Shown: positions 1,095 through 60,410 of the stretch, in pieces
Layout of the letters: every line of letters starts with the position of its first letter
Numbering within the stretch: position 1 is the first letter of the stretch
Assembly (NCBI GenBank): GCA_032358255.1
Contig: JAULBX010027827.1
Location: forward strand, 147,412-211,411
Reading direction: 5' to 3'
Length of the DNA stretch: 64,000 nucleotides
Origin: Heterotrichella gracilis
Lineage: Eukaryota; Sar; Xanthophyceae; Tribonematales; Xanthonemataceae
Position numbers and translations under genes: made by a program
The notes under the pieces: model-generated
What the model was told of the DNA's origin: nothing
Database searches by the model: none
What the model saw: only the letters and a program-made list of their open reading frames with translations

Positions 1095-4000
1095 ATGGAG
1101 TATGAAGAGTTCGACGTGAGTGAGACATCACATCTCATCGTCAGCAGTTGAATACGTATCCTGCTGCGCCCCATCCCGTGTGATAAGAAGCAGGAGATAC
1201 CACGGCATTGCTCATCCCAAGCACCTTTCAACCGATGCGTGCAGACCATCTTGTGCATCTTGCATCTTGCATCCCACAATGCATGCACCTCAGAATTGGG
1301 ATATGCATGACCGTGATGCCCCCATCCATCCCTGCAGGAGGCCTATGGCGTCCCCGACATGGTCAAGCAGTTCGTGGTCTACTTCTACAGGCATATCAGG
1401 TAACCCATCGCCCACACCTCACTGTACCAGTGACTTACAAGGCTTGTCCTTGCACCACTCACTGCACCATCACAGCTATTGGGCTCAGCTGAGCTCTTAG
1501 ACTGTTTTCTGAACCCACTAGTCAGCCTCAGACCCACCACCCACTGGTCAGCCCTGTACTTACCGGCAGCCCCTCAAACAGCAGCGGGGGATTTCATTAC
1601 CAGGATCCATACTTGTCCCTCTGCATCTTGTCAGATGCAGCACGCAGTTAAACACCACCAGCTACAGGTTGTATCCACTAGACAGCTTAGAACACTGAAC
1701 AACCTCAGTGCACCAATACCAAAAACACCAATCCACTGGAATAGCCTCCCGTCCACCGCCCACACGGCATCAAGAGGAACCTCTGCGAGGGGTCACTGTG
1801 CACCGTCTCCTCCCCCACCTTCTGCACAACCACTCACCGTCAGCTACTGGTGAACCCACTAGACAGCCTGAACCTCAGTGCACAGCCACTTGTCACCAAT
1901 CAACCCGTGCTCCTTTTGGTGCCTCTACACCAAACCCACTGACGGGGCCATCTGCTGCGCAGGGAGCGCAACATCCGTGAGATCCACTCTATGTTCACGG
2001 TGTCATTCTCCACCCTGAGCGAGCGATTCTTCAAGGATGTGCCATGGCCCCAGGTGCAGGAGATCGCTGAGCTGGCAGATAACGACCACGTGTTCTGCCT
2101 GCTGTACAAGGTGCGGCGCCTAGTTAGGGTTTAGGGTTTCAGCACCGGCAAGCACGTAGTTAGGGTTTAGGGTTATAGCACGTGTACTTCTGAGCTGACA
2201 ACGATGACGTGTTCTGTATGCTGTATAAGGTGCGGCGCCCAGGTGGCAAACACCCTAGTCAGGGTTTAGGGTTTAGGGTTTTAGCATGTATACTTCTGCT
2301 GAGCTGGTAGACAACGGCCACGTGTTCTGCCTGCTGGCTGTACAAAGTATAGTAGCGGGTGGGGTTTAACAGTTTGAGATAGCAGCCCTGGTTGCTTTGG
2401 TATCAAGAATAGCCGGTGCGATGGCGCAATCAAAATGCTGCATGATTATCTTATTTATCCTCGCCACTCTACACCTCCACGCCTTTACATCTCATTGTCG
2501 CATCCGCACACTTCCTATGGCCTGCCACCACCCACCCGCCCGCCCACCCGCCCTGCAGGAGATGTACTTCCGCCACCTGTTTGCCATCAAGGGCCACAAG
2601 CCCTCACTGGACCAGCGCTGCGCAGCATGGGACAACTACGCACAGCTGTTTGGCGTGATCCTGCACGGGAACGTCAACATGCAGGTACACCCGTAGATAA
2701 TGTTCATTTTGGGATGGGTATTGCCAGGACAGAGCTGAGCAGCACAAAGGCTTGTGCACGGCTGAATGTGAACCTGGCTATGCATCTTTATGTACATAAA
2801 TTCATATCTTGTTGCGATCTCTCTCGCCAAAGCCCTTAGTGGCGGTGGGTGCAGGTTACGCTATTGGCGGTGGCCATGGTTTGTATCTCTTTCCTTTGTG
2901 GTACTCAGTCACTCACCACACCGTGCAGCTTCCGCTGGCTGTGGGGCTTGGTGGGCGAGTTTGTGTACCAGTTCCAGTCCTTCTGCAAGTATTTAAATAA
3001 CTAACTGATTCATTTCACCGCGCAGCTCCCGCACAGCTGGCTGTGGGACATGGTGGACGAGTTTGTGTACCAGTTCCAGTCCTTCTGCCAGTACAAGGGC
3101 AAGCTGGGCCAGATGCAGGCGGAGGAGGTGGACACCCTGCGCAACCTGGACGGGGTGTGGAACGTGCTTGCGGTGCTCAACTACCTGCAGGCAATGGTGG
3201 ACAAGTCGGGCATTCTGGCGGAGCTGTCCAACGAAGGTGGGGTATTTGGCAGGGAGGGTGCGCTTTGTGGGGGGTATAGGGGAGGAGGGATGGAGTGGGG
3301 TGCGGGGGGCGAAACGGATAATTGCACAGTGTGGGAAAGTTCTGTGGCAGCGGTGGGCATGTTGGGCGTGGGAACCCTAAGTTGGGGTTTTGAGTGCCAT
3401 GTGGACTGCAGTAACCTCACCTGATTGTTGCACGGTGGTTGGCATCAGAGCCGGTCTCAATAGACTCATTTGTAGGTACATATGCATGTGGGTGAAGTGT
3501 GCATTTCATGCTACATTAAATTAAATTGTCATGTGCATACAAAATTGCTGCGGCATTCACGCCATGTCTGGCAAGGATGGCTTCACGGTGGGGGCATCCT
3601 CTTGATGACATACGTTGAAACACAGCCATCGGGTTGGCTCAGTAAGCAGTCGGTGCGGTAGGAGTAACCTGTTACTGCATTCAAGGACCAATGTTTACAA
3701 CATCACATCGGTGTGTGGCCTGCTAACGCGCCCTCCATTGCCCCCCCTGTGCAGACAGCCAGAAGCGCCTGTTTGAGACGGAGGGCTACGACCCCAAGGA
3801 GAGCAACGTGCTGCGCATGCTGGGCTACTTCTCGCTCATGGGGCTGCTGCGCGTGCACACAGTGATCGGGGACTACTACGGGGCGCTCAAGGCGGTGTAC
3901 CCCGCATCGGTGTTCCAGACCAAGAACCTGTTCGCAACCAAGCAGCCAGGTGCGCAGGGGGTTTAGGGCTTAGGGTTTAGGGTTTGTGGGCCAGGCAACT

Positions 4001-6548
4001 ACTACGGGGCTCGAGGCGGTGTACCCCGCATCAGTGTTCCAGGCGAAGAACCTGTTTGCAACCATGCAGCCAGGTGAGCAGCCTGAAACAGCATGCGCAA
4101 ACAACTGATATGGGGAGTGCTGGTGGATCACGTGCCACACAACTGTTGAAACGGGAACTGTTCCAATGCGTACCCTCTGCTTGCACCCACTGTGCTTCCC
4201 TAGAATGTTCTGCTTCCCCTTGCTCCTCCTCATCATCCCCCATTCCCCCGCAGGCTGCAACATCACGCTCCACTACTACACCGGCTTCTGCTACCTCATG
4301 ATGAACCGATACGTGGATGCAGCAAGGACGTTCAACAACATCCTGTCGTGGATCGCACGGTGGGTGGTGGGCAGGGGCCAAAGCATGTGTTGGCTATTGT
4401 TTTTAACACGCCATGTGTGTACTGCGGTACTCTTTGGCGTCCATGACCTGGTCTGGATGCCTTTTCAAGTGTTGTCACACAGTGGCGCATCCTGACATAT
4501 TTGCATTCTGGGCCGTTTGTAGCCCACTCATTGCCATGGGCACCCAGCGTCATCAATTATATAACATCCCCTTAAAGCGTGGAGTGGACCCTTGAAGCAA
4601 TTATAGCCTTTAAAATTGGCACCACTGTCCATTTCACCCTTGTTCCCTTGCACTCTCAGGACGCGGCACGTGCTCTCCCAGCACGTCCACTTTGACGAGT
4701 TTTTGAAGAAGAACGAGCAGATCTACGCGCTGCTTGCGCTGGTGGTGGCCTTCTGCCCACCCGCCACCAAGGTGCTGGAGGAGACGGTGGCAAACCAGCT
4801 CAGGGAAAAGTGAGTTCGCGGGGCGGAGGGTGGGTGTGCGGGTGTGGGTGCTGCGGGTGGTTCGTTTGGGTGTGGGTGGCTGGGTGAGGCGGTGTTACCG
4901 TTGAAGGGTTTTGTTCGAGGGAGAAGTGGGGATGTGGGTGGGGGTCTGGGGGGAAATGCTTACCTGGTTTAAATTCAGTAACGCAGCAGTGCACGTGTAA
5001 GTTGGACAAATGCTTGTGTAAATGAACATCACACACGCAAAAATGCCTGCTCCTCAAAACCCTCACCCAAAACCCCAGCACAAAACCCCAATTTTGCAAA
5101 ACTTACAACCCTTCACTTAAAATTGGTATTTTAATTTAGCCAGTGAAGGGCTATTAATTTTATTCTATCTGCTATTTTGAACCCCAAAATCCTGCCGCAG
5201 GTACCAGGAGAAGATGCAGCGCATGGCTGGCCGCATGGAGGAGCCTGTGTTCCAGGAGCTGTTTGACTATGGCTGCCCCAGGTTCATCACCACCGCACCC
5301 CCCAACTTTGACGCGCTGCAGCTGAACACCAACCGTGAGGCCTACCGCACGCAGCTGCGCATGCTGCTGGCCGCGGTGGCTGAGCAGAAGCACGTGCCCG
5401 TCATCAGGCAGTTCCTCAAGCTCTACTCGGTGCGTGGGGACGGGTGCCTAGCCGGCGAGTGGCTCTCAGGGGCCCAGTTGGCCAAGAATAACTATCAAGG
5501 ATTGTACTATAGATATTCTTGCATTCTTGCTATTACATGTATTACATTTGAAGGGTAGTTTTCCTGTTGGAACATGTACAGAGCTGCTTATTCAACGAAA
5601 TAGTAAAGTCAGCGATCTTGTCAATGTGGTAATGAAGGGGTATTCGTTGTGCATATTCCAACCTGCCTCACCTCCCCTCCCCCCTCCTCCAGAGCATCCC
5701 GCTGTCCAAGCTGGCCAACCTGATGGAGGTGGATGAGTCAACCCTGCGCGCCCAGCTGCTGGTCCTCAAGAAGCACACGGTGCTCAAGACATACATGGGC
5801 GAGGGAGACCTCACGCAGGGACAGGTGCAGCCCACGGGCGACGTGCAGTTCTACATCGACGTGGACCCCACCAGCGGGGACGAGATGGTGCATGTGGGCG
5901 AGGCGGCGCCGCCCAAGCGGAGAGGTGGGTGGTGGTGGTGATGGTGTGTGCGTTGAGTAGTGGCCAGGGGAGAGGTTAGGAGGTTGCCTGTGTGAGGAAG
6001 CGGCCCAGCTCAAGTAGGGTGTTGGTGGTGAGTTGAGTGGGCAAGGAGGTAGTGTGTTGTGGGTCGGATTCGGGTGGGGGAAGGAGGTAGGGATGAGGTG
6101 GTGCATGTGGGCGATGTGGTGGCGGCTGCGCCAAAGCTGAGAGGTGTGTGTGGTGGTGGTTGGTTTGAGGTTATGGGGCTTGCATGTTTGGTGGGGCAGC
6201 TCCAATCAAGGAGAAGGGTGGAAGAGCAGATTGGATATGAGAGGGGATGCAGTTGTCGATGATAAACAAGGCTTGCACAGCCTTGAGCCAGACCACTGAG
6301 ATCGAGGTACAGGCCTGCATGAGCATGGGGTTTACATCAGGAGGACGCATGCAGCAGCAATGCACCGAGCGCATAAGGAAATAGCCTGTAGCCTTGCCTG
6401 GCATGCCCACGCCTGATCCCGATCCCCCCCCCCTCCCGCAGCCGACTTCCTTGTGCGCCACATCGCCAAGATGGAGCAGATTGTGAGCGACCTGAACCAG
6501 ACGTCGGCCATCCAACAGCGCGCGGCAGGGGCGGCACCAGCCTACTAG
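1095..6548 (+). CDS. EIF3L: Eukaryotic translation initiation factor 3 subunit L
   Basis: Eleven exons: 1095-1115, 1338-1399, 1963-2110, 2559-2684, 3026-3236, 3755-3949, 4254-4359, 4660-4809, 5201-5429, 5693-5924, 6442-6548. Together they give 528 residues; animal eIF3L is about 560. All phases agree. Recognisable blocks in order are the FYRHIRERNI region, ERFFKDVPWPQ, WLWDMVDEFVYQFQSF, MLGYFSLMGLLRVH, YYTGFCYLMMNRY, LREKYQEKM and RQFLKLYS. The PCI domain follows over roughly residues 340-500, then ADFLVRHIAKME at the end. eIF3L is a PCI subunit of the eIF3 scaffold that loads mRNA on the 40S ribosome in the cytosol. The start sits in an AACCATGG context. The first exon is only 21 bases. Introns 3, 6 and 10 and the one before exon 5 contain degenerate copies of exon edges. 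Confidence 0.96.
2190..2350 (+). repeat. Two exon-3 3'-edge echoes in eIF3L intron 3
   Basis: The last ~50 bases of exon 3 plus donor (2062-2118) recur as degenerate copies at 2190-2239 and 2298-2350. The shared core is GAGCTG...GACGTGTTCTG..TGCTGTA.AAGGTGCGGCG. Each copy is preceded by a TAGTTAGGGTTTAGGG-like block. The copies are frameshifted, so they are not usable exons. The first keeps the donor GTGCGG; in the second the donor is degraded to AAAGTATAG. Confidence 0.85.
2922..2988 (+). repeat. Upstream 5'-edge echo of eIF3L exon 5
   Basis: A copy of the acceptor and first ~60 bases of exon 5 (real copy 3019-3087) lies about 97 bases upstream. It retains GTGCAG as an acceptor and an exact 33-base stretch running through GAGTTTGTGTACCAGTTCCA. 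Five bases are missing near its start, which shifts the frame, so inclusion would truncate the protein. It is a duplicated, decayed exon start. Confidence 0.85.
3993..4079 (+). repeat. Exon-6 3'-edge echo in eIF3L intron 6
   Basis: The final ~85 bases of exon 6 and its donor (3868-3955) are repeated here with roughly ten substitutions. The copy ends at CAGCCAG followed by GTGAGC, a stronger donor than the GTGCGC of the real exon. A block of TTTAGGG units (3961-3987) sits exactly between the two copies. If the downstream donor were used, extra sequence including telomere-like units would be added to the mRNA. Confidence 0.88.
6089..6160 (+). repeat. Exon-10 3'-edge echo in eIF3L intron 10
   Basis: A degenerate copy of the end of exon 10 (real 5877-5940) carries GATGAGGTGGTGCATGTGGG, then GCGGCTGCGCC, then AGAGGTGTGTG at the donor. 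The order and spacing match the real GACGAGATGGTGCATGTGGG...AGAGGTGGGTG. Confidence 0.75.
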
Positions 6549-7816: not shown

Positions 7817-10010
7817 CTAGAACAGGTTCGCTTTCTTCTTCAACAAGACCTGGCGCCAGGCTGGCTGCCCCCTGAACTCCTGCCTGCTCACTCCAAACAC
7901 CGTGTCAAACTCTGCGTCGTCCAGGTACTCCTCGCGGCGCGTCATGTCGATGCCGCTCTCCAGCCGCATGCCTGCAAGGGGTGGGGTGGGGTGGGTGGGT
8001 GCGACAGGGGAGGGATATGCAGCCAATCACACAAAAGCCATATTGACACCACTGCTGGAACACACGTACCTAAATGAAGTATCCAACTACCAGCCCTGCC
8101 CAACCCATGACCAGAACATGCTTAGGATATGAATTCCTTGCTGATTCTTATGATGCAGTGCCTGTGCCTAAGCGCCTGTGCAAAAATGATTTTTATGCTA
8201 GTACATGGCTGGCATGGGGGCCAACTGCCAATCTGGCTGTAACACTGAAATTATGGGCTGGTAAACTACCACCCCTCCTTGGCCCAGCACGTACGCTGCA
8301 GCTCTGCATAGAGAATGAAGTTCCTGCCCAATGAGAACTGCTTGAGCCCATGCAACAAATCAATATCCAACTAATCACCCACCTACCTACGTCCCCTGAC
8401 ATTAGACCCAGCATGCACCCTGCATAGGCGTCAAGTCCTTGATGTGAACCAACCACCCACCAGCACGTACCCTGCAGCTCTGCGTATGGGATGAAGTCCT
8501 TGCCCACCGTGAACTTGAAGTCTGTGAACACCTTGTTCTCAGCGATAAACCCGTTCTCCAGCTTGGCAGGCAGGGTGGGGCTGGCCGCCACGGGGGCGGG
8601 TGCAGGGGAGGCAGACCCATTTTCCACCTTGAACATGCCGGTCATGCGCTTGGTGATGTTCTCGGGGATGGTTTCCTTGGAGCCGTCCACCACCTGGGGG
8701 TGAGGAGGGGGCGCCTTGGTGAGGGGTGCGGGTGATGGCAGCGGTGGGGTAAGATGGGGCTGGCGCTTGGCAGCGGGGATGTGAAGGACGGGAGTGCATG
8801 GCGTGCGTGTGCCCAGTAGATGGTGTATGCATACACAAAAACATATGCATACATCGTGGAGCATAGTACTGTGATATGGGGATACAAGCTGGTTAGATGG
8901 GTGGCAGACGTGAAGCGCCCACCTCCAGGCTACACGGTAGCGCAGTGAGCGGAGGTATGCAGAGCAAAGGGTCAGCAGTGTCAAATGTAAGCCAAGGAAT
9001 GTTGTTGTTGCTTAGCCAGTTGGGTACCTCGTCAGCTGCCGGGCTGGCTGCCAGCTCAGCCTTGGCGCCAGCTGGTGCAATCTCCGCGGGCGTGACAGGC
9101 GTCGGCGTCTCAGTGGCCGCCAGGGGCTTGGGTGCCTTGACAGGCGTGCCACTGGCCTCTGCCACAGGCTCTGGCTTTGGCACAGGCTCGGGCTCGGGTG
9201 CAGGCTCTGGCGCGGGAGCTGGCACAGGCGCCTCGGCAACTGCAGTAGGTTCCACCACTGGTTCGGGCTCTGGGGCTTGTTGGACTGCGCTTTCTGGCTC
9301 GGGTGCGGCAACCTCAGGGGCAGGCTCTGCTGCCGGTGTGGGTTCTGCCTCAGGCTCAGCAGCTGACTCAGGTGCAGCTGGCTCAGGTGCCGAGACTTCA
9401 GCAGGTGCAGAGCTGGGCTCTGGCGCCGACTCAGGAGTGGCTGCCACTGCAGGTGCGTCCGCTGCTGGTGCTTCTGTTTCCGTGCTGTCCTCCTCTTGGA
9501 CCTCTACCTCCTCCTCTGCTCCCTCCACATCCTGAACAGAGAGGACAGCTGGTTGCCAGGTGTGCAAGCCATGGGGCTGACCTGACAGCTGGTGCACAAC
9601 TTGACCTGGGTTCTGGTTCCCACAGGCAGAGGTCTGGAATGTTGTAAAATAATAAGGTGGTGTGTTGTTGTGGTGGAATAGCCAAGGAACCTGAGAGGGT
9701 GGCTGGTTGGGGACCTCACTTGGAGTTTGTGAGTGAGATCGCTTGCATAACAAGTTGCTGACCCACTTGCCAGTGGCTCTCGACTTTGTGAACACAGCTG
9801 GCATTTTAATAAACTATTCTGCAGGTTACCAAACCCTACAAGCTCCCTCTCACAACCAAGTGAGGGTGTTACCAGCATTCCTGAACCAGTGCGTGAAGCA
9901 GCGCAGTGGTGAAGGAACCGCACCTGGACCTCCTCCTCTGCGGCACCGCCAGCTGCAGCCTTGTTGGCACCAGGCTGGTTCTGCTTGTTCTTCTTCTTGT
10001 TCTTCGCCAT
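7817..10010 (-). CDS. Villin-headpiece domain protein with Pro/Ala/Glu-rich linker
   Basis: Four exons: 10010-9924, 9531-9028, 8693-8471, 7971-7817. They give 322 residues in consistent phase. The N-terminus is lysine-rich (MAKNKKKNKQ). Residues about 45-190 are a low-complexity P/A/E linker, probably extended. The C-terminal ~60 residues form a villin headpiece: FIPYAELQ, then GIDMTRREEYLDD, EFDTVFGVSRQEF, PAWRQVLLKKKANLF. The family shows 'YLs..eF..vFgm...eF..lP.WKq...Kk..gLF', so the hydrophobic core, the lysine-rich actin-binding end and the terminal LF are all present. No gelsolin repeats occur upstream. The likely role is F-actin binding or anchoring in the cytoplasm; its partner is unknown. 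The protein is much shorter than villins, so it is headpiece-only. Confidence 0.88.
8288..8340 (-). repeat. Exon-3 3'-edge echo in the headpiece gene
   Basis: On the minus strand the end of exon 3 with its donor (real 8520-8465) is copied ~180 bases downstream. The core CAGCTCTGC.TA..G.ATGAAGT.CCTGCCCA (plus-strand spelling) and the donor CACGTAC are shared. The copy lies wholly inside the last intron. Confidence 0.8.
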
Positions 10011-11195: not shown

Positions 11196-14100
11196 TCATC
11201 CATCTTTCTTCTCCGCCCCAACCCCCTCCCCCTTCCCCGCCCCATCCCTGGCCTCCGCCCCCCCTGCCAGCAGCGCCGCTGTATACTTGTTCGCAAAGTA
11301 CTCAAAGTAGTAGCTGCAACACAGCCACAGCAGCGTGCCGTCAGACAGGTGCACCAGCCACATGGCGTCCTGCCAACACAGGGTGTCCACCACATAGTGC
11401 TGGTGCAACATACCCAAATAACACCGGGTCATAGATGCAACAGTGCCAAAGTAAAGCAGGTAAAGCTCATGGACGGTGTCCGCCTCATTAACAGCAATGG
11501 CACCAAAGTAAAGCTGTTTGGTCCACTGCATGCCATGCAACTGGTCATCTGATTGACTGACCCCACTGGTGCATGCACAGGCAGGACTTCACAGCTAAGC
11601 AGTCACGTGAACTACTTGCCCATGCCCCCTCCCCCACCCCCACCTGGCCCCATTCCACGCCGACACGCTGATGACAATGAGCAGGAAAGCGCAGTTTGCC
11701 ACGTAGGAGCGCCACCAGGCCAGGGTGAGCAGGAGGGTGAGCTGGGTGAGCGCCACGTGGAGGGCCATGTACACAAGCGGCTGCGGGACGGGGGTGAGGG
11801 GGGATTCAAGGAATACGTAATAATAAATGAAAATACTATGCATAAAATGGCAATTACAAAAGGTTTTTCAGCAGCGGAGCACCATTTAGACCCGCCCTGC
11901 ATGATTTGAGCGTTTTATCCCGCAGCGATGCCGATGCAGCCCCCCCGATCTCCCCCCCTGCACCATCTGCACACCATTCCGCAGCCAGCTCCTCACCTAA
12001 CCAAGACTGTGGCGCCGATGCCCTACCGGCATGCCGTGGTTAGACTCCTCCTCTTGCCCTCCCACACCCACCTGCGCGTCGTGCGGCAGCCAGCCCATTG
12101 CCCTGGCCAGCCCCGTCCTCCTGCCCGGCCGCATCATGTAGCTGAACAGGGTGGTGTAGCCGCGGTCACGGATCTTCTGGGAGGAAACGATGAACACCTG
12201 GGGAGGATAAAGTTCATGTGCGTGGGTAGGTGTGTTGGGTGAATGGGCCCAGTCCATGTATGCTTCCCTAATGACCTAAGAAATGCATTTTCCACAATCG
12301 CATGTGCTGTCGTCCCAAGCTTTAACCCCATGCCCATACATTCGGGACTGACACACACCCCGGCTCAATTGCAGGAGCCTGCTGCACTAACGCACCCACT
12401 GCATGTAGCAAACAAAACTTGTACACCCTTCCCCTCCCCTCCCCCCCCTCACCTTGATGTAATATGAGAATGCCCACACCGCATAGGGCAGGATGGGCCA
12501 CAGGCCCAAATCCCAAATCCCCGCAGAGTTCCACGCATCCCTGGCAGCCTGGGGATCAGCCGCATCCTTGAACAGGTCATCGCTGGGGTGCCACCTCTGC
12601 GCCCACGACACACATGCGGGGAACCAGTGGAGGAAGAGGGAGGCGATCTGAGGAGGAGGGGGGTGCAATTCAGTGGTTGTACAGTCCACAGGATTCCATT
12701 CCCTTTTCTACCAACTCCCTTTGCTATCACAAAAGATAACATAATGGATATGGTTTGAAAGTGCCATCGCACTAGTGCCAGCACTGCGCCCATGACACAC
12801 ATGCCGGGAACAAGTGGAGGAACAGGGAAGCAATCTGGAGGGGATCACATTTTCAGTGCGGCACTATGTCTCCCTTTCTAGAAAGTGGACAGTGGTTTAC
12901 CAGGCAATCGTCGGTGATGTGATGAGTATGTCATGTAAGTCAGCGCATCCGCGTTTCAGAGCTCACCCCCAAAGAGCTACGCCGAAATGTAATGGGCTCT
13001 ACATTCTATCAGAAATCCCCCTCAACTCCCCCCCTCCCACCACCCACCTTGTCCACCGAGTGGTACACCAGGGAGTTCCGGAACGCGATGATGGACCAGG
13101 CCAGGGGGCCCATGTTGAAGGCGTAGGTGGCCTGCAGGGGGAGATAAATGTAACGTTCACAGGAGTAAATTTGTAAAAAACTTGTTTCGCATGATCAGGC
13201 TGGATGCGGCGCGGTGCCAAGCAGGAAGTCTAGAAAATCAGTATGTGTCTTGCCATGTGCAGGAACAGAAAGTCGGGTGCACCCGGGTAAAAGGGGACCT
13301 TTCGCAACAGGAAAACCCTAACGCCAGGCGAGGACCCTAGCAAAGGGTGATTGTCTTACCCGGTGCAGGAACAGGGAAGTGGGGTAGACCCATATGTGAA
13401 TGAGCAGCAGCACGTTTGCAAAGTAGCAAAAGTCAAAGAGATAGTAGTGCCAGCGCTTGATGCGGTAGTCTATCCAGCGGTGGCTGAACAGCAGCAGCGC
13501 CTTGAAGCTGTACAGCAGGTGGAAGGTGGAGGGGGAGTTGCCCAGCCAGTAGGCGCTCAGCCTGCAAGGGGGGGATGTGGGCGATGTAAATTGTCAGACT
13601 TGGTGGGTTGGCTGCACACATGGACACGCATTTAGCTTCTAATGGTTTCCCTTACGCTCGCAGTACAGAAGGTTGAAACATGTAGTGCTTGCTACAGTAG
13701 GGTTTGGGGTCGTGGGTTTAGGGTTTTGATGCGCGGGCCGCACCACGTATCCAGCACACCCAGCAAGAAGGTTATCATGTGTCAAGGGTTTAGGGTTTTG
13801 ATGCGCAGGTCGCACCACGTATCCAGCACGACCAGCACGAACATTCTCTTGTGTTTAGGGTTTATAGTTTAGGGTTTAGGGTTTTGCTGGTGTGCAGGCC
13901 TCACCACATATCCAGCACACCCAGCACGAAGGTTATCTTGTGGCGCAGCTTGACCACCTTTGGGTGCCGCTGCTTCTGCATGAACGCATCCCAGCGCTCC
14001 TTGACTTTCTTCTTCACTCGGGGCTCCTTGAACACTTGGCCGAAGTCGAGCTGCGCGGGACATGGCAGTACATGGAATTTATACAGGGCTATCTGTCTGG

Positions 14101-44743: not shown

Positions 44744-46445
44744 GGGGTGTCAAGGCGGGGGGGTATGGGGGCTGGGGGGGATGGAGGGTCATCTGTCCCC
44801 GTTCCTTCATCTGCACATTTTCTCAGGGATGCAACTCAGTTGCCACATGTGTGAGTGCCTAGCATCCCAAATACTGATGTTGATAAGTAAACCAAAAGGT
44901 TCCACAACGGTGGTAAATGCTCATCAACATTTATAAAGTAATATGTATATACGTCTTGGTTGATGTGTGTCATTGCGCAGGTATTCACACTGCCGGGCTT
45001 GCCTTGTTATTTCATTCCAGACTGGTTCCTAACTTTGCCCTCGTCCGCCATGGAAATTTCATGCCATTGCATGCCACATGCGCGGTGCTGGCTGCCCATC
45101 ATCATACTGAACTCTCTAAATTTGAAGTTGTCATTTTAATTGATGCTGCAGCAGACAGAACCCCGCTGATCTTTAGGGAAGGGTAGTTGCATTGCCCAAC
45201 ATGTCTAGCTAGGCATTGATGCCTGGGGGATGTCGTTGTCTGCACCTGTGTACCCCTTTTAAAGTAAATTACGCGTGCAGCCCTTCTGTGAATTAGTATA
45301 ATCACCACCCGCTGGGTGTATGCCAGCTGTGTGCAGCTACTGTTTTCTTCAATTTCCATACACGTGCTGCTATGGCATAGCAGCTTGTGGTTAACAGTAC
45401 CTCTATTGCCCCACACCCCCGAGGCTCTGGCTCTTGCAAATTGTCAATGACCACTTGGGTGACGGGTTTACAACAGGGCTTGCCCTACCAGGCTGGCACC
45501 CATTGAGCAAGGAACCAATAATGTGGTATGTACACATATATGTCACGTTACACTGTGCTAGGGCCTGTGCCATACCCACGTTAGGAGTCAGTAGACTGGC
45601 TCAGCCTGGAATACAAGAACTCCCCTGGACTGCACTTAGAATGCTGTCCTTGGCTGGGGAATGCCTCTGATATATTCCTCAAGAGACTGTGAGAGTATGG
45701 CAAATACGGTGTAACACAGTTGCTGACTTGACAGCAACAAAAGCTACCAAGTCGTGACGCATATTGACTTGACAGCAAGCTACAGTACAATTGTCATCTG
45801 CAAGTCATCTGCAAGTATGCATCTTGACGCCGCGTATAACTCTGAGAGGGTGATACCTCACATGATCACTGAATTTGAAATTGTATTGAAATCTTAATGA
45901 TACTTCACATCATCGATGTTGTTAACCAAATGGCTAGCTACAGCTCAATTTTCCAAATGACCCGCGCTGGCAGATGCTGAAATATAATATTGGATAATTG
46001 CTACTAGCTTCAACTATGCCGCTGGCCTAGGCATGGTCACTGGCATAGCGACAATGGAATGCCAGCAGAGACAATTGCAAGCCACCAAATGATTCTACAT
46101 GCCCATCCATCTCATCATCAATGCATGAGGGATGACCCCTCCCTCCACGCCCTCCATGCCTTCCATGTGGTGATCATAGGCAGAAATGGGCGAATCGCTG
46201 CCTTGGTCAGGGAGGCTGCTGTGTTATCCTGCAGGATGCGGTCCCAGGGGTGAGACTCAGTTGAGAGAAGGGGGGAAGCGACATGTTGCCATAATTGGGC
46301 ACTTGTCGCAAGGGGCACTGCTCCAGGTTATGCATGGTTGCAGTTGCAGCGCTGCTGCACCACCCCCTTCACCACCGAGTACGCATGCATGCATGTATAT
46401 TATTTCCAGGGCTAGAGCGCACTTGTCACACATCTGTCCTGTTTA

Positions 46446-46498
<53 letters not shown>

Positions 46499-47127
46499 TT
46501 ATAGAGAGAATAAAGAACGGTTGAATGTGCAAATGCCAGCCTTGCCATTTATGCCATGCACCTGTTGCCTCAGGCAGTGACTGATAAAGCTCTGAGATCT
46601 CAAAGAGCTCAGAGCTTTATAAGATATGCACTGAAGCTGAGGTTCTGCTCGGGGTCACAGGACCCCAATGAACGAGTCAACACTACACTGCAGCATTGCT
46701 TTCCCAGGCCCTACTCTGGGCAACACCAGGCTGTCTATTTAGCATATGTTTTAGGGTACAGGGTACAGGAATTAGGGTTAGCTTGGTGGCACCATGGTGC
46801 AGCATGTCACAAGACTGGCATACTGACATGGTCAATGCAAAAAAAACGTGTTTGTAATGAGCAGTGCTGCCTGAATTGCAAGTGGCGACAGTGGCTATTA
46901 GTAGTGAGGTGTACCATGTCTATTCTACCTGCGTAACTTGTGTTATCCTGCCTGAGAAACAGTAGCACAGGTGGCATGTACACGTGTGCCTTTGCACCAA
47001 AAAACTCAATTTCCGTCCACTTGCAATCAATGACAATCACCGTGACAGCCTGCAGACCTCGTAGCTAGGGCTCATAGGACGGCATCTAAAACAAGCGCAT
47101 TCAGCAGTGCACTCAGAAGTTCTCACG
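44744..47127. other. 2.4-kb intergenic region with an (AT)n microsatellite
   Basis: No gene was recognised. A perfect (AT)23 tract lies at 46451-46496. A small inverted repeat with 13-base arms (ATAAAGCTCTGAG at 46584-46596, complement at 46608-46620, 11-base loop) lies just beyond it. Scattered ORFs lack any recognisable similarity. Confidence 0.6.
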
Positions 47128-47794: not shown

Positions 47795-49428
47795 AAAACG
47801 TTTGAAAGTGCAGGTGGGAAATCTTGGGTTGTACACGCCCTTGCAACCTTTGTCGTTGTTGCTGCCTGCATACTCCCAATCTCAAGTCCCCACATTACCT
47901 CCCTTCCCCCTTTTATCTTTCCACATGCAGGCCATGCAGCTCTTAGACTGGCATTTGCCTTCAGATCTAGCACCCTGCCTGGCCGGAGGCGTGCCAGAGC
48001 TGACGCTGACGGCGTGCGACAGCTAAATCCAACTTTTCACTGTGGAGTGGCAGCTAACCCACAAGGATAGTAAAGAGACAGCCAGATGGAACAGTCGTTG
48101 ATACGTCTCTCACTGTGGTATTGCCAGCAACTAATGTGGGGTTGCTTAGCACGGAGGTGCCACTTTAGTGTGGAATATTGAAGTAGTTTATTGGCAGGGC
48201 TCTGTGCGCTACTTGATATACTTCAACTAACGCGCAGCGCCGCCATGTACGCACGTTCCATCAGCGCTGTCCACAGTGTCATAGCCTAGCCTGCACGCAG
48301 TATGGTAGTGCACGATAGGCTATGACACTGTGGAAAGCGCTGATCGAACGTTCGTACATGGAATGGCACGGAACAACGCCTGGGTAGTTTCTCCTTTTTT
48401 TTTGTGTGCCGCACCTCGAAAGGTCGCCCCTTGTATAGAAGCATTAATTGGAAGTTTGATGGCATGCACCAGAACTTTGGGTGCCCTTTAGGGTTTGTCT
48501 ATGTCCCATAGCCCGCTGTGTGCATTTAGCCTGTGCAATGTTGTCGAGTTTTTGCTGATAATCTTTGGAAAAATAGGTACCTGGCTTGTGCGACAGGGAT
48601 GCCCGTGTACACACCATAGCTTAGCGTGAGCAAGACGTCTCAAGTTTCCTGTCTGGTGCCAGTACATGGCATCCAAGTCTGTGAGCCAATTGTGGGTTAG
48701 CTTCAGTGTGAACACTTTGAGGCGCCTCAAAGTAATGCACAATATTTAGTATTGCTTAATACTTAGTCCACAAGTTGTTTGATGCTCCCGTGGCAAATTC
48801 ATGTAAGAAGACTAATAGAAATGCAAGCAAGGGTGTGCATGCCTGCCAAATTAATCCCTTTGCCAATGGCCCCAAGCGCAAAGCGCTTCCAGAAGCAGCC
48901 AGCAATGTTTTTGCAGCTTTTCAAATTGAATGCATCGTGCCATTGTGTTGCGGAAAGGGCTTTGCAAATATTGTCTTACATTGCACCACCCAGCACCACT
49001 AGACCCGGACAATTATTCCTGCAGAAACATTGCTTGGTAATTGATCACTCCAAATCTTGATACAATCTCAGTCAGCTCGACCTTATCCGATGTTCTCCTC
49101 TGCTGCTCATGCCATTACGCCGCAGACAGGACTGTACAGGATGTCCCGTCGACAAGCTTGATCAACGAGGGGCTATCCCCGCCTAAAACACAGATCTTGA
49201 TCAAAATTACAACTCACTGCGCACCACCTTGCTGTCACAAGGCATGCAATTTTGACCTTACAATTGTCCAAAAAAATCCCCCGGTGCCTCACCGTCCCCA
49301 CACACTGTCAAACATGACCATTGCCAGCGCGCCCTCAAGCATCGGTACCAATATTGTGTGCACAGTATGATTGCCACCTATCCAAAGTTTACACTAGATT
49401 GAAAGATAAAATTCTTTAACATTTTGCT
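47795..49428. other. Convergent intergenic region with a long hairpin
   Basis: 1.6 kb containing both 3' UTRs and the inverted repeat annotated separately at 48245-48359. The rest has no recognised feature. Confidence 0.4.
48245..48359. repeat. Near-perfect 43-base inverted repeat (hairpin)
   Basis: Arm 1 is 48245-48287 and arm 2 is 48317-48359. The arms are complementary at 40 of 43 positions, starting ATGTACG and ending ATAGCCT in arm-1 orientation. The 29-base loop is itself partly complementary (CTGCAC with GTGCAC nearby). It lies in intergenic DNA. Transcribed in either direction, it would fold into a stem long enough to be processed as a microRNA or small-RNA precursor. It could equally be a tiny MITE-like element. 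Confidence 0.9.
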
Positions 49429-52400: not shown

Positions 52401-54157
52401 TTGACGCGTTGGGTACAAATGCCCACTGGCTGGCTCCCCACGCCATGGGCCCATTTTGCAGCTCAGAGGGGACCAGAGTATGGGGCTTAAATAGGGCGAG
52501 GACCTGGGGTGACTCCAAGATGTCTGTGTGACCCTGTGGGGGGACAAATTGGGATGGATAGTGAGGAAAACTTCCTAGGGGTATGGAGATGCATTCATGG
52601 GTGTGAAATTCTACTAGGGTTGTGGTAAAATCCTTGTGAGGTTGAAGACCCTAATGGGTTTGTGGTTGTCTGACTAAAGGGCGTATTGACAGCGGCATGT
52701 CGACTGGACAGAAAAGACACGGGTGCGACACAAACCCTAGAAGGGTTTGGAGCAGCCAGGCAACACGCTGCTGGAGGCAGAACGTGATGCACGGACCACG
52801 GATTTCCACTGTGCAAGGGTAAGTAGGTGACCACCTCAGGCCACAAGGGTTTCACATTGACCACAAGTGGTCTGCGACAGTTGAGCGGTCACGTAGGGTT
52901 TGGGATTTAGGATTTAGGGTTTAGCCTCACCTCAGGCCACAGCCACAGCGCAGAAGGGTCCTGCTGGCAACCTGGCTAGGGTCTGGGTTTAGGGTTTAGG
53001 AATTAGGGTTTACCCTCACCTCAGGCCATACCCAAGGCCCCGAAGGGTCATTGCTGCGAACCTGTTTAGGGTTTAGGGTTCAAAGTTTACACTCACCTCT
53101 GGCCACAGCCACAGCGCAGAGGGGTCCCGGCTGTCCAGCAGGATCCAGTGCTTCCTCTGCCCCACGGGGTGCGTCACATCCCCCAGGGACCGCTTCCAAT
53201 CCCCAACCACCACGTCAGCCCACTGCAGGGCCTGCATGGTCTTGGCCCACCTCAGCTGGTGCTTGGCGTGGCGCACGTTTTTCCATCCCAGGGATTGCAG
53301 CGCGGGGATTGCTCGCACGATGGCCATGATGAACCTGCAGGGTGGGGGAGCCCTGTGCTAGGGTTTTCTGGCGCATGTCCTGTGTGGGGGTTGTGGTGCA
53401 TGCGAGGGAGGATTTGCAGCAGCGGTGGCGAATGCAGGTGCTTATTCCAGAGAGCAACTACCGCACAATGCTGCGTTGTGCTGGACAGGTTTGGCATGCG
53501 CCCACCAAGCACCACAGTGTCCTATCACGCCATGGTGGTACCACCTAAAGCTGCCCCAGAATAACCAAAGTTAGGGTTTAGGGTTGAGATTTAAGGTTTA
53601 GAGAAAGGTTCATGCGCCAATCGCGATCGCATGTATCCCTTGCACTCCCTGAGGGTTTAGGGTTTTGGAAAGGGTTCCTTTGCCACTCACGATTTCTTGT
53701 ATCCCTTGGTGATGCTCACCCCCATGCACTCCCCGTCCTTCATCCCCTGGTGGTAGCACTTGTGGTCCCCCAGCGCATCGCAGCTGTTGGCCAGGTGAAT
53801 CATACATGCCTCGCGCAATTCATGACTCTCAGGTGAAGCTCGGGTGCATTCGGGGGGGTAGAGCACAAGGATCTTCACATCCTTGATGGAGCGCTTGGTG
53901 AGGTTTTTGGGGGTGGAGGTGAGGAGGAGCGGGTGGGTGGTGGGGGCGGTGGCTGGGGATGTGACGGAGTTGGCCTGGGATTTGAAGATCGCCAGGTAGG
54001 AGGAGGTGGTGTGGGTGGTGGTGGTGGGTGGTGCTGCATCATCGGGCTCTAATGCGCTGTCCAGGGGGGCGCCACCAGTGGTGGGAGAGGCATGGCCAGG
54101 GGATATAATGAGGATGAGGAGGAGGGAGGGGAGGAAATTCACGGCCATTGCTGCCAT
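49429..54157 (-). CDS. Secretory-pathway glycosyltransferase-like protein with acidic low-complexity tail
   Basis: Recognised exons: 54157-53691, 53334-53097, 52140-51939, 51517-51332, 51038-50916, 50610-49429. A hydrophobic start (VNFLPSLLLILIISPG) suggests a signal peptide or anchor. Further blocks are DVKILVLYPPE, ADVVVGDWKRSL, HWILLDSRDPSALWLWPE, DVAFFGK and VFVSPFGMGEWSHKDFEAMMSGCLVVKPRA. The last resembles the nucleotide-sugar binding end of glycosyltransferase family 1-like domains ('G..s.R..EalasGalvv'). Exon 2 ends in phase 0 but exon 3 needs phase 2 on entry, so at least one exon in 52141-53096 is missing from this model. The last exon adds ~330 residues rich in S, G, D, E and A, with a PKRKKSKTGGKKKEK basic patch. 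The donor substrate and product are unknown. Confidence 0.7.
52832..53060 (-). repeat. Exon-2 3'-edge echoes in the glycosyltransferase-like gene
   Basis: The real exon end (53135-53091, plus-strand CACTCACCTCTGGCCACAGCCACAGCGCAGAGGGGTC) is repeated at 52926-52965 and 53014-53050, with a shorter trace at 52832-52850. The copies keep CTCACCTCAGGCCA and GAAGGGTC, separated by TTTAGGGTTTAGG runs. This makes three to four head-to-tail units and hides the true next exon. Confidence 0.85.
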
Positions 54158-55643: not shown

Positions 55644-58600
55644 TCACTCCCCCCCTTTGCCCTTGACCATCGTCCAGAAAGCACATGTGTATGTAGACTG
55701 GAGCATGGACCTGTGAGGGGATTGGGTAAATGAGAGCAAATCACCAAAACATCAGATGAGACTGTAAGTCATGAATCAGCCTCGCTGCGCAAGATGACTC
55801 ACACGCACGAGGGGTGACATATGTGGTATATGAGAGTAAACCACAGGAAACCAGATGAGGATGCGTCAGCCTCGTTGCGCAAGATCGTGCACAGGCAAAC
55901 CCCCACCTGTCGTTGTGCAGGAAAGGCGCGGGCACCATCTCCCTCATCAGGGTCTTGAACCCTATCTCAGCAGCCACCCGCTCCACCTCTTGAAGGCTGA
56001 TCTCGATACTCACCTGGGGACCACAATCAGATTACCAGGTGGTTGGGAAGCGCACATACAGTCACATTGAAAGGCATTCTCAACCATTGTCAGCTTATTG
56101 CTTTGCGCGCGTTGGAACGATACATGCCAAATCCAGGTAATGCACATGAACTTAACTATTGTGCACATTAAATAGGACCAACCTGAGCCACTGGCTGCAC
56201 AATACCGCATGATCTTTATTGTATTGCGCACTATCACAGTAATTGCTATAAGAGCCATTTTTGGTGCATTTGTTGTCAGCCATCCAACATATAATACCCC
56301 AACTGTTTGTCATTTAGGCGCATGCGATTCACTCCATGGCATTTGTTGCCCACTCACCTGATGCTCAGGTAGATACAGGTGGCTGTCAGCCCAGTGGTAT
56401 AGCAAAGGGCCCAAATTGATCCACATGCCGCCCTCCTGCAAAGTGTGGAATGTGAGGTAAATGCACGTGCCAGGGCTGCTGGCAGCAATAAATACCCTGT
56501 AGACAGGCTGGTTGATTTATCTTGCCTAGCTGGGTGCAGACCCAGTGCTGGTACTTCGTGATTAACCACTCTGGGCCGAGGGCCATGGTCCCGACACCCG
56601 ACAAAACTCCAAGTTTCAAAAGCGCTGCATTAAAGAAATATCAACAAGATTGTATCCATGCATTTCATGATTATTTTTTTCATGATGTGGTTTCAACTCG
56701 AGCTGAATTTGGGACAATTTGCACCGGATTCGCTGCTAACTACCACAGGTTTGTTTGTTTGCAATATTTTCTAGGAATGCGAAAACTTGCTCCAAATGTC
56801 TTACCTTGAGCACCCCCCATATAATCTCCATGTAATCCACGATGTTGTGCGCAGTATCTACGAAGAAGCAGGTGGCTACCGCATCAAAGCAGCCCTGATA
56901 TTCCTCCCGCCGGTACACCTCCACAAAATCCCCAGCGCACATCGACAGCATCCCCGGGCTGCTGTCCAGGGCCGCAAAGGGATCCACGTCGGGGATGGTC
57001 ACCTGGGAAATAATCGAATTGGGTGAAGCCATCGTAGTATAAACAGTGCTAGCACCAAACTGCTTGGCGCCGCGTGTGCAAGGCTGACTGCTAATCTGGC
57101 TGTATCGTTGGAATGCATGTAGCTACCTGAGTAATCTGTGGTAGGACTTTGCAACGCATCAACAGCAGTTGGTCAGCATGTATTGCTGGGATGCATGTAG
57201 TTATTTGACTAATCCATGGTAGGGTTTTGCAACGCATCAACAGCATTTGGTCGGCATTGTGTAGGGTTTTGTGGCAGGGTTTTGCAACGCACCGATCGCA
57301 ACTGGTCGGCATCCGTGAGCTGGTTGCAGTTGCTGTGCCACCACGGGTGTATGGTCCACTGGTCGACCTGCAGGGTGTTGTTGAGAATGAAGGAGGCGGT
57401 GAGGAGCATGTAGTAGGAGAACTCGTTGCCCTGCGTGTCAAAACCCTGCAGGAGGGTAATGAATTTGGGTGAGAACCCTAGGCTAGGGCGTAATTAGCAA
57501 GCAGGTGGTAGGAGAACTCGTTGCTTTGCGTGTCAAAACCCTGCAGGAGGGCAAACGAGGGATACAAACCCTAGGCTGGAGTGTATTTGGCAAGCAGGTC
57601 AGTGAAAAACCTTGGTCTTTGATTGGGGCGCCCACACCCTGCCAAAAGGGACATGAGCGGGGCAGCGAACCCTAAAGGGTAAGAACAGAGCCAGCCAGCA
57701 TAAGACCTGCATGGTAATATATCATTTGATGGCATGCAGGTAAGTGGCAAAAAATCCCAACTCAGGCTGTAGTTTAGAAGTCACAGGAGAAGCAACCACG
57801 AATACCACGAATGGTCTCGATTGCACAGGCCTCCGCAACGAAAAACCTAACGCAGCCATGCCAGGCGCAACAATATGCGTGCATGCATGCATGCTTGTGA
57901 GCCAGCCGCAAACCCTACCCCAGAAACCCTCAACAAAAAGCCTAGCACAGCCCATGCCGGGGAGCGGCAGCCATGCAGGCGGTGTGCAAACCCTACCCCA
58001 AACCCCGACCATAACCACAATCCAAGCCAAATGCATGCACATCTCACAAGGGGACGAGGGCCAAGAACACCAACGAAATCACGATCACTTACCAGTTGCG
58101 CAATGTCCAGGCACAGCCTCCCCAGGCCAGCCCCCGGGACCAGCACGCGGGGAGGGGGGGCACCCCCTTGGCGGGCCTCTGGCGGGAACCTCCTGGCCAC
58201 CTCCCCGCATATCCTGCCGTATGATTGCTCCCTCTCACTGGCCCCTGCTGCAGACCAGTCCCTAGCTAGGTTCTTGAGGACGTACCTGGGAGGGGAGGCG
58301 GGTCAGTGAGGGTGGGTTTGAGCCAAACTTTGGGGTTTAGGGTCTGGCGGTTAGGATTGGGGTTTGGCATTTAGAATTTGGAATGGGGAGATGAAGTTTT
58401 GTGGACGTGTCAAGGCATTGTTTGAGGGTTTGGGTGCCAGGACTTAGGGTAGCGAGGTGGGGCAAGGACAAGAGAGGGTTTGGTCATGATTAGGGTGCGC
58501 TGGCAATGATGTGAGGGGGGTGAGACTTTGAGAATATGACTAGGATCTGACTGTTAGGGTTTGCGAGTCGGGAGGTGGGGTCCAGGAGGAATTACTTGTC

Positions 58601-60410
58601 GATTTTAATGGTACAGTTTTGAGTTTGCGCATGCCTGCTGATTGGCCCCGTTGAGGCATCCGATTGGCAGCGCACATGTATGCTTTACCATATCGGGCAT
58701 GGATTGATGGCCACATTCAGGCGTAATTAGCAAGCCATCAGTTTTTGCCCGTTGTTACTGGGCAATGACCATAATTATTGGGCAATGACCATGATTACTG
58801 GGCAATGACCATGATTATTGGGCAATGACCAGGGTGGGTTGTGAAGGACAAGAGGGCATCGCTTGTGGCCAATTGTGGTGCATGCAACCATGCCTGGCGC
58901 GCTCGTTACAAGGCACTGTAAACGCACCCTGTAGAATTACAACCACCCTGCTCCTCCCCTGCTCACCTGACTTTCTCCACATCCCCTGGGTGGGTGCGTG
59001 GGTGCGTTTCCCGCCACTCCTGTGCAGCTGCCATGGCACAGGCCAGGTGGGGGGGCAGGTCGGGGTTTTCGTGGGGATCGTAGGTGGCCAGCAGGGATTT
59101 GAGGAAGAACTTGTTCACCTGGGACGTGGGGCGAGGTGTGCAGCTTGTTTACCCTCACGAGGGTTGTCACAAGGTTGCGTGTGCGCGATGCTGCACCGCG
59201 ACCTAGGGTTCCGGCCAGGGTTTCAACTGTGTGCGCCGGTCTGGCAGCGTCCAGAGTACAGCCCTTGACTAGGGTTCCAGCTGCATCATGGGAACCCTAG
59301 CCAAGGGTTCAGACAACGCCACGATGCAATGCACATGTGCGCTTGTGTCCCCTCGCTTTTTAGGGTTTCGCTGGCCTGCAGCGCGGTGTGGGCGCTCCGA
59401 ATGCTCTGCGGACTGAAGTAAATTGCCCCTACAGGTATTGACTGAGGTTTTCGTTGGGGTTGCTGAGGGTTTGAAGCACAACTCTAAGCGCGGCGCGTGC
59501 GTGCCATATCTGCTGAGGAAAGCTGTGCAGCAGGGATCGGCTGGGGTTCACCCCAAGCTAGGGTTTCTAGGGTTTGTGCACACCTGCAGCGCGGCGCGTG
59601 CGTCCCGGATCTTCTGAGGGAAGTTGCGCAGCAGGGTTTGGTGCCTGGGGGGCAGTCGCCGGTAGTCCGCCTCCCATCGCGCAACCTCCCACTCGGCGTC
59701 CCTAGGGTATTCTTGCAGGGCAGCTATGATCCTGCGGTCGAGGGTAGGGTTTAGGGTTTTGGTTGGGATAGGGTTTGGTGGCGCTGTGGGCGCCCGGGCA
59801 ATGCGGTGGTGTTGGGGTAAATGGGCGAGTCGTGACCAAGGAAGCTAAGGCTTTTGTTAGGGTTTACTGTGCACTCCAGATGGCCCAACGCCCTGATGGA
59901 GGCAGTGGGGCACCACCTCAGATAGGTTGTCGGTGAAACGAAAGAGCAATAACAGGACATGAACAAGGAACCTTCCAAAAGCAATGTGGGAGTAAATGTA
60001 TGTCAGAGTGGGCGTGGAAAGAGTGACCCAAGGGTTTCAGCCGTCAGACTGACCTGGGACTGCAAGTTGGTGGACATCGCTGTGGTCAACGACACCCGGG
60101 AGGGTTTACTGAGACCAATATGACCTTACTAATAGTGTACAAGATACTATTACGTCACTACCTGTGACCGGACTGGGTGGCAATGCTCGGGTGGCAGCGC
60201 CCATGTATGCATGCATTGCTGCATGCATGCATTCCGAAGTTAAGCAAAGTATGCATGCTTCACCCCAGTGTTTTGCAAACCACCATCTGCTCACTTTCCC
60301 AGCGCCTGACGTTCTTCTTGCTCCGCTTCGGCATCGAGCTCCGCCTGCGACGGTGGCTCCCACGCCTCTGGGCCACCGTCGCTCAAAATGCCCAACGGGT
60401 CGCCGCTCAT
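55644..60410 (-). CDS. CARNMT1: Carnosine N-methyltransferase (N2227-like family)
   Basis: Nine exons: 60410-60295, 59731-59584, 59118-58967, 58285-58093, 57445-57293, 57002-56805, 56435-56358, 56013-55907, 55710-55644. They give 403 residues (human CARNMT1 409) and all phases agree. Blocks in order: ELDAEAEQERQALGKIIAAL, RRLPPRHQTLL, RDWSAAGASERE, the SAM-binding loop LVPGAGLGRL (~188), GNEFSYYMLLTASFILN, PDVDPFAAL, MCAGDFVEVY, FFVDTAHNIVDYMEIIW and GGMWINLGPLLYH. The C-terminus ends STYTCAFWTMVK. The GAG.GRL loop, the DFVEVY and DTAHN motifs and the WINLGPLLYH motif are all intact. The family methylates carnosine and related dipeptides or imidazoles to anserine-type products with S-adenosylmethionine. 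The natural substrate in algae is unknown. Exon 2 and exon 5 edges are echoed in introns. Confidence 0.95.
57057..57106. repeat. Dispersed repeat, copy 2
   Basis: It matches 28924-28972 at about 90% over 47 bases (AACTGCTTGGCGCCGCGTGT, then GCAAGGCTGACTGCTA). It lies in an intron of the methyltransferase gene. The AATCTGGCTGTA end of this copy also occurs at 8231-8242 in the headpiece gene intron, hinting at a third, shorter copy. Confidence 0.75.
57148..57282 (-). repeat. Exon-5 3'-edge echoes in the methyltransferase gene
   Basis: The real exon end and donor (57320-57283, plus-strand TTTTGCAACGCACCGATCGCAACTGGTCGGCAT) recurs at 57148-57180 and 57226-57260 as TTTGCAACGCATCAACAGCA.TTGGTC.GCAT. 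A further TAGGGTTTTG fragment follows at 57261-57271. The two echoes are closer to each other than to the exon, so the second duplication probably copied an echo. Confidence 0.88.
57508..57550 (-). repeat. Upstream 5'-edge echo of methyltransferase exon 5
   Basis: TAGGAGAACTCGTTGC.TTGCGTGTCAAAACCCTGCAGGAGGG (plus-strand spelling) copies the real exon start and acceptor at 57414-57456 with only about three differences. Both copies are followed by AACCCTAGGCT. The copy includes the acceptor, so exon 5 has echoes on both sides. Confidence 0.95.
58755..58830. repeat. Four-copy 20-base minisatellite
   Basis: The unit TTACTGGGCAATGACCATGA/TTATTGGGCAATGACCATAA repeats four times with one or two changes. 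It lies inside an intron of the methyltransferase gene and does not derive from any exon edge I can find. Confidence 0.93.
59366..59540 (-). repeat. Exon-2 3'-edge echoes in the methyltransferase gene
   Basis: The real exon end (59640-59578, plus-strand CACCTGCAGCGCGGCGCGTGCGTCCCGGATCTTCTGAGGGAAGTTGCGCAGCAGGG) is copied at 59483-59540 (GCGCGGCGCGTGCGTGCCATATCTGCTGAGGAAAGCTGTGCAGCAGGG). A shorter trace occurs at 59366-59395 (CTGGCCTGCAGCGCGGTGTG). TAGGGTTTCTAGGGTTT separates the real edge and the first echo. Confidence 0.88.

Follow-up and report, generated by a model that had tools for sequence, protein, structure and literature searches.

Exon-edge copies joined by telomeric repeats in the introns of the alga Heterotrichella gracilis

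Introduction

Why should introns repeatedly carry decayed copies of the ends of the exons that they adjoin? The question is raised by a stretch of 64,000 nucleotides from Heterotrichella gracilis (assembly GCA_032358255.1, contig JAULBX010027827.1, positions 147412–211411; the window), for which an earlier note, made from the sequence alone, described intronic segments that repeat the last or first bases of the neighbouring exon together with its donor or acceptor (termed echoes here) and proposed a mechanism acting at splice boundaries. The echoes are present in large excess over chance, lie head to tail and are anchored at exon edges, and many are separated from their source by a short, preferentially oriented run of TTTAGGG-type repeat, giving a unit–telomere–unit structure. 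These telomeric repeats between many of the copies went unremarked in the earlier note, and they suggest that staggered breaks were repaired with the addition of telomeric sequence. We consider it fairly probable that DNA break repair left the echoes as scars, telomeric addition having frequently accompanied the staggered break.

The structure brings together three subjects that are usually treated separately: the action of telomerase at breaks inside chromosomes, the short duplications that staggered breaks produce and the origin of surplus splice sites in introns. Events whose join bears a telomere scar can be read base by base, and sequence could then test where genes break, which kinds of 3′ end are preferred by telomerase and how decoy splice sites originate.

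Abundance and form of the echoes

The DNA analysed comprises 147,411 bp of the 68.5 Mb assembly: the window, which is the terminal part of contig C530, and 83 kb upstream of it (negative coordinates denote positions upstream of the window). A self-trained predictor produced 18 genes with 253 exons and 235 introns; some neighbouring genes are fused in these models and some echoes are called as exons, and the study as a whole concerns one genome and predicted genes. The masked contig was aligned with itself by a banded Smith–Waterman search at distances of 15–1500 bp, with five rotated-sequence controls as the null. The search returned 108 direct local pairs at a score of at least 32 and 86 at a score of at least 36, compared with 1, 0, 2, 1 and 0 pairs and 0, 0, 1, 0 and 0 pairs, respectively, in the controls. 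The observation of the earlier note is confirmed.

After removal of seven exon–exon pairs, the remaining 101 pairs form 63 clusters (44 at exon edges, 15 confined to introns and four intergenic). Fourteen short exons may themselves be echoes, and without them the 63 clusters divide into 40 edge, 16 intron, four intergenic and three other. Exon-edge clusters touch 43 of the 235 predicted introns. Within the window (1000–60500, suspect exons removed) there are 25 edge, five intron, two other and one intergenic clusters; one of the 25, at 23254–23346, sits past the predicted RMC1 stop and is not at a splice site. Counted by hand as segments and not as clusters, about 32 echoes occur in the window and by coordinates all nine genes named earlier are hit, which upholds the earlier figure of more than 25 copies in nine genes, with three of the names (headpiece, coiled-coil and glycosyltransferase-like) being unconfirmed labels from that note.

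The 50 edge pairs with a score of at least 40 and a period of at least 60 are direct head-to-tail copies with an identity of 73–100% (median 87%) and an aligned length of 29–102 bp (median 55), in agreement with the earlier description of head-to-tail copies in varied stages of decay. Inverted local matches at a score of at least 36 number 15, of which 14 are self-palindromes, and none of the 15 joins an exon to noncoding DNA. Direct copies (86 versus 15 inverted) that are tens of base pairs long and close together have the form of duplications from staggered breaks. Exon-internal tandem repeats in two predicted genes, at −81707 to −81456 and −65373 to −64483 with periods of 33 and 159 bp, were set aside as coding repeats.

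An assembly or gene-model artefact is scarcely conceivable as the source of these copies. The predictor does turn some echoes into exons and fuse some genes, but the copies are 73–100% identical with differing telomeric runs, 40 edge clusters remain without the 14 suspect exons, and five of the six window proteins searched match Pfam families (eIF3L/Paf67, DUF2838, Mpp10, RMC1 and carnosine N-methyltransferase), the glycosyltransferase-like protein having no Pfam match. The aldo/keto reductase protein matches solved reductases. Among the best 120 of 493 matches, the proteins nearest to eIF3L are from green algae such as Coccomyxa (59% identity) and Myrmecia (58%), and none is near-identical; by these matches the DNA is probably that of a green alga absent from the proteins listed.

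The spread of echoes over genes is weakly uneven (overall p = 0.055). The predicted gene at −56843 to −28089, which has 50 introns, the most of any, and possibly represents merged genes, contains two exon-edge clusters compared with 8.3 expected; echo load may vary by gene.

Telomeric repeats between the copies

At a typical locus the exon tail and its donor are followed by a TTTAGGG-type run and then by an echo with its own donor, sometimes with another run and another echo beyond. Six-unit TTTAGGG arrays lie near the start (within about 300 bp) of contigs C70, C140, C526, C609, C712, C717 and C770, and TTTAGGG is therefore the telomere repeat of the alga. Exact genome matches to (TTTAGGG)3 number 406 + 428, with none for the reversed-pattern control. 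The internal runs are thus short arrays of the alga's own telomere repeat and belong to the interstitial telomeric sequences (ITS). The density of telomeric 7-mers is highest in introns (8.5 per kb) and lower in intergenic DNA (2.7 per kb) and exons (1.3 per kb).

The gap between the copies contains telomeric 7-mers in 26 of the 40 best edge pairs, compared with a mean of 6.0 for random intron pieces (maximum 16 in 2,000 draws), and in several cases (e.g. L018, L021, L022 and the locus at −73537) the filler is near-pure telomere repeat. The association was also approached from the repeats themselves, using 30 loci picked solely by (TTTAGGG)3, of which L006, L013, L024 and L030 overlap and were dropped. 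Direct copies across the array are present in 11 of the remaining 26 ITS loci, compared with about 10% on average at control points within these loci (most of which gave 0). By reading, seven of these 11 unit–telomere–unit loci are at exon edges (L002, L003, L009, L016, L022, L027 and L029) and L001, L018, L019 and L021 are confined to introns. Junctions, a few of which were inspected by eye among 44 printed pairs, share two or three bases in register with the telomere repeat in L018, L022 and the locus at 17713 and none in L001 and L021. In L003 (1330–1730) the exon tail, which presumably resembles a bromodomain, is followed by two successive echoes with telomeric repeats at each join, and the internal AG of each is used as an acceptor by the predictor.

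An insert flanked by direct repeats is also what a mobile element would leave if its insertions lay close to splice sites and made long target-site duplications. The repeats, however, vary in length from 29 to 102 bp in the 50 pairs, and 40 fillers with telomeric and simple repeats masked have no common sequence except for two cross matches, both from one overlapping cluster pair (random intron pieces give 0–4). With no core shared among the 40 fillers, this explanation was rejected, and we consider it very improbable.

Anchoring at exon edges

Among the direct exon-to-noncoding pairs, 38 of 39 come to within 15 bp of the edge of the exon on the side of the copy (mean of 6.7 under the null, at most 14 in 5,000 draws) and 36 of 39 fall in the adjacent intron. 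A strict set (score of at least 40, period of at least 60; 40 clusters) contains 36 edge, two intron and two intergenic clusters, or 34 edge, two intron, two intergenic and two other when the 14 suspect exons are left out.

Such a pattern might arise if tandem duplication struck anywhere and survival alone shaped the outcome, edge-spanning copies being harmless, exon-internal ones purged and exon copies slower to decay. Edge-spanning duplications should indeed be tolerated, and the four intron-only unit–telomere–unit loci listed above also speak for this reading. A simulation that drew breakpoints uniformly and applied a survival filter and decay nevertheless predicts 26% edge clusters versus the 36 of 40 observed (p ~ 3 × 10−17, with clusters taken as independent, as throughout, although several share a gene). 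The intronic part of the repeat has a median of 6 bp in 35 hand-listed cases, compared with 26 bp simulated, and exceeds 25 bp in one of the 35 compared with 52% in the simulation; these exon- and intron-side lengths were typed by hand for 35 of the 44 edge clusters, nine being omitted as weak or odd, among them one near −52740 in which the intronic part is long and the exonic part short. On the strength of the simulation we reject random duplication shaped by survival, which is in our judgement improbable, and the earlier claim that the edge placement goes beyond random tandem duplication is borne out.

Placement and orientation of telomeric arrays

Combining 28 contig arrays of at least 13 bp with the 26 ITS loci gives 54 arrays, of which 50 are intronic, four intergenic and none exonic (contig alone: 27 of 28 intronic, one intergenic). 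Of the intronic arrays, 22 of 50 have a donor no more than 40 bp away (10.8 expected, p = 0.0002) and 12 of 50 have an acceptor at such a distance (10.8 expected, p = 0.37). Read in gene sense, arrays near a donor only comprise 14 TTTAGGG and five CCCTAAA, and those near an acceptor only comprise no TTTAGGG and nine CCCTAAA. Introns of the 147 kb display a strong strand asymmetry, the densities per kb in the opening and closing 20 bp being 60.5 and 3.9 for GGG and 9.4 and 75.3 for CCC. The orientation of the arrays is as expected if 3′ ends lay in G-rich DNA at both intron edges. Placing the arrays at GGG or CCC of the same intron predicts 8.6 CCCTAAA near acceptors, which fits the 10 of 29 observed. 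Splicing constraints could also shape array orientation, as is conceivable because TTTAG resembles an acceptor.

Counts over the whole genome on both strands point in the same direction: CAGGTG occurs 312 times at 0–30 bp before (TTTAGGG)2 and 163 times at 200–230 bp, and (CCCTAAA)2 occurs 353 times at 0–30 bp before TGCAGG and 219 times at 200–230 bp. The opposite orientations give 256 and 185 at 0–30 bp, and the reversed-pattern controls give 0, except for 1 in one count. These counts are supporting only because they include hexamers that are not splice sites and overlapping matches within one array.

Proposed mechanism

We propose that two nicks on opposite strands, ∼30–100 bp apart, would leave 3′ overhangs. 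Fill-in of these overhangs followed by end joining would leave two copies of the overhang sequence in direct orientation. One 3′ end would first have received telomeric repeats in about two thirds of cases, resulting in the unit–telomere–unit structure. The original splice site would stay at the exon edge; the gene therefore survives, and the copy decays within the intron. Since introns start G-rich and end C-rich, 3′ ends at these places would suit telomerase, which would explain much of the orientation of the repeats and a part of the edge bias. The overhang polarity, telomerase, the fill-in enzymes and the end joining are the parts that we infer.

Several observations weigh against this break-repair reading. 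The insertion itself is inferred and not observed directly. No telomeric 7-mer occurs in the gap of 14 of the 40 best edge pairs, and 15 of the 26 ITS loci have no flanking copy; in L002, L021 and L026, which hold other repeats, the control points give 41–53%. Telomere-free pairs (n = 17) have an identity of 0.869 versus 0.871 in the others (n = 32) and so are not more diverged, which leaves unsupported the idea that they are merely older; their gaps are longer (128 versus 71 bp). Mid-intron arrays favour CCCTAAA (14 versus five TTTAGGG), five of the 19 donor-side arrays are oriented contrary to the priming prediction, and placement at GGG or CCC of the same intron yields 9.7 TTTAGGG near donors versus 16 of 21 observed (p = 0.0003). 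Lastly, a null in which G-rich DNA primes the event (one break end at GG, GGG, GGGG or AGGG) gives 34–47% edge clusters versus 36 of 40 observed. As the whole answer, G-rich priming is insufficient in the contig, though it agrees with the acceptor counts and with some of the donor counts; the ITS-locus sample (seven of 11 at edges) is compatible with it (p = 0.09–0.35). The exon-edge preference exceeds random duplication, neutral survival and, in the contig, G-rich priming. Priming accounts for only part of the edge bias, and about a third of the echoes are without telomeric repeat.

The remaining edge preference may reflect a coupling to R-loops or splicing. One such explanation holds that breaks are tied to transcription or splicing, e.g. 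through R-loops bounded by splice factors, with both strands cut at the edges of a 30–100 bp bubble and repair then proceeding as in the break-repair reading. The short intronic part of the repeats (median 6 bp in the 35 hand-listed cases), the edge excess over the priming model in the contig and the intronic position of 27 of the 28 contig arrays of at least 13 bp (one intergenic) speak for it. Against it, the ITS sample does not rise above the priming model (seven of 11, p = 0.09–0.35) and echo numbers per gene are only weakly uneven (p = 0.055), and we regard it as rather unlikely. The splice-boundary mechanism of the earlier note thus stands as regards edge anchoring beyond random duplication and, in the contig, beyond priming; a cause in splicing, R-loops or transcription is a possibility only, the ITS edge fraction being within the priming model. 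The fullest form of the break-repair reading is put forward tentatively, as a doubtful but possible extension: in this algal lineage staggered breaks would arise again and again from a process tied to splice boundaries (through R-loops or the footprints of splice factors at exon edges), telomerase would cap them and end joining would close them, and introns would steadily accumulate spare exon edges and splice sites that carry telomere scars.

Echo splice sites and intron length

Among 64 mapped echo splice sites, some are artefacts that arose where the predictor took an echo for an exon. GT/AG is retained at 51 of the 64, and 45 of the 51 have a score above zero as well; the introns therefore carry plausible spare splice sites, as had been claimed. 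Fifteen would keep the frame, two of them without a stop, consistent with the earlier statement that most copies are frameshifted or stop-containing. No evidence was found that selection preserves the echo splice sites, since 51 of 64 is about what 87% identity would give. The suggestion that echoes lengthen introns is not confirmed in these models: the median length is 282 bp for introns with an echo versus 318.5 bp for those without, with some models split by echoes called as exons.

Relation to known systems

Short ITS in mammals were inserted at double-strand breaks, which has been attributed to break repair with telomerase (PMC7215372, accessible part). The same part of that source reports direct duplication from staggered ends at three of 66 horse loci, with two more combining deletion, addition and duplication, and calls the intronic share of human ITS compatible with random insertion. 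The alga resembles this system in its short telomeric arrays inside chromosomes and in target duplication from staggered breaks, and differs from it in that duplication is rare in mammals (PMC7215372, accessible part), whereas in the alga 11 of 26 loci have flanking copies and arrays cluster near donors. Fill-in of 3′ overhangs by Pol α-primase guided by CST, followed by end joining, generates small tandem duplications (PMC8355091, accessible part); there too an overhang of tens of bases is copied directly before joining, and CST also serves telomeres. The accessible part of PMC8355091 describes neither telomeric filler nor exon-edge anchoring for these duplications, whereas the alga has both, through enzymes that can only be presumed. 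For plants, a proposed model has telomerase adding repeats at 3′ ends freed in transcribed chromatin (PMC3022908, accessible part). Plant telo boxes likewise occur in introns, more so in the first two, but they are single short motifs commonest at gene 5′ ends, and the accessible part of PMC3022908 describes no flanking duplications or splice-edge pattern.

The unit–telomere–unit structure would be the expected sum of fill-in duplication and telomeric insertion at breaks. Its components are already known; the abundance and the exon-edge anchoring appear to be new. No prior treatment of telomeric repeats at duplicated exon edges was found, judging by titles and abstract openings in a literature that lacks most subscription papers. 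Tandem duplication of an AGGT site, a further duplication involving splice signals, leads to intron gain. Unlike that process, a donor-side echo in the alga has its own donor with more intron beyond; since an echo has its own donor or acceptor and is followed by further intron, the intron seems to predate the echo. Printed structures, as read, hold no new intron between duplicate halves and so do not fit intron gain of the AGGT type.

Echoes and other features of the window

Pairs introduced below as given by self-alignment come from that search; the others were also read in the printed locus. In eIF3L (plus strand) the exon tail with its donor (2075–2123) is followed by a spacer with TTTAGGG-type repeats (2124–2193, from the printed locus), a first echo with a donor (2194–2242, 84%) and, behind a further telomeric run, a second echo of the tail (2298–2336, 92%). 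An echo of an exon head (2937–2991, 93%) precedes its source (3039–3093), and the tail at 3872–3957 is separated by a telomeric spacer from its echo at 3998–4081 (90%). Part of the latter (4043–4073) is called as an exon; solved eIF3L is ∼16 residues shorter over this stretch, with scattered gaps. Self-alignment also gives a tail at 5877–5927 with an echo at 6090–6146, the gap being without a telomeric 7-mer.

The next two genes are on the minus strand. For the headpiece gene, self-alignment gives a tail at 8460–8515 and an echo at 8284–8339. The GPC1-type gene (DUF2838 by Pfam) has an exon head (12588–12650) with an acceptor echo (12775–12837) and a tail (13888–13942) with two echoes and telomeric repeats between (13727–13942), and self-alignment gives a tail (13352–13391) with a weak echo (13246–13284, 80%). 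In MPP10 (plus strand) the tail at 17713–17783 is separated by a 32 bp telomeric spacer from its echo at 17816–17886 (92%), and by self-alignment an acceptor echo (21400–21445) precedes an exon head (21468–21513). The first of these echoes has strong splice signals, with 17820–17867 predicted as a 48 bp exon, and could be a duplicated mini-exon in use.

RMC1 (minus strand) contains tails at 26234–26308 (echo 26058–26133, 88%, likewise predicted as an exon), 26842–26905 (three echoes with telomeric repeats between, 26543–26905), 27490–27549 (echo 27380–27439, 92%) and 29166–29226 (echo 28984–29037); self-alignment adds a tail at 28244–28278 (echo 28169–28204) and a weak acceptor-side pair at 27600–27691 (21 bp, score 32). 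The aldo/keto reductase gene (plus strand), identified by its match to solved reductases, has a tail at 37111–37158 with echoes at 37245–37292 and 37354–37401 (locus 37111–37431), and by self-alignment an acceptor echo at 36887–36917 with an exon head at 36953–36984 (score 35) and a further tail with an echo at 38138–38173 (locus 38068–38173). In the coiled-coil gene (plus strand, 42422–42777) an exon tail has echoes at 42590–42622 (100%) and 42749–42777 (90%).

On the minus strand, the glycosyltransferase-like gene has a tail at 53092–53127 and two echoes with CCCTAAA repeats between (52925–53127), and self-alignment gives a weak echo at 53604–53708 (77%, score 33). The carnosine methyltransferase gene (minus strand) has a tail at 59588–59650, a telomeric spacer and an echo at 59487–59546. 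Self-alignment gives two further loci in this gene: a duplicated intron unit (57101–57312), the third copy of which reaches the edge of exon 57293–57445, and an exon-head duplication (57405–57599), which alone among the listed cases extends far into the intron (61 bp).

Palindromic, hairpin-like DNA is present at 48243–48361 and at 46581–46623, next to a (TA)n run at 46444–46496. Similar long palindromes occur upstream at −59282 to −59022, −68833 to −68630, −67824 to −67660 and −80103 to −79969, and the palindromes may be small hairpin transposons.

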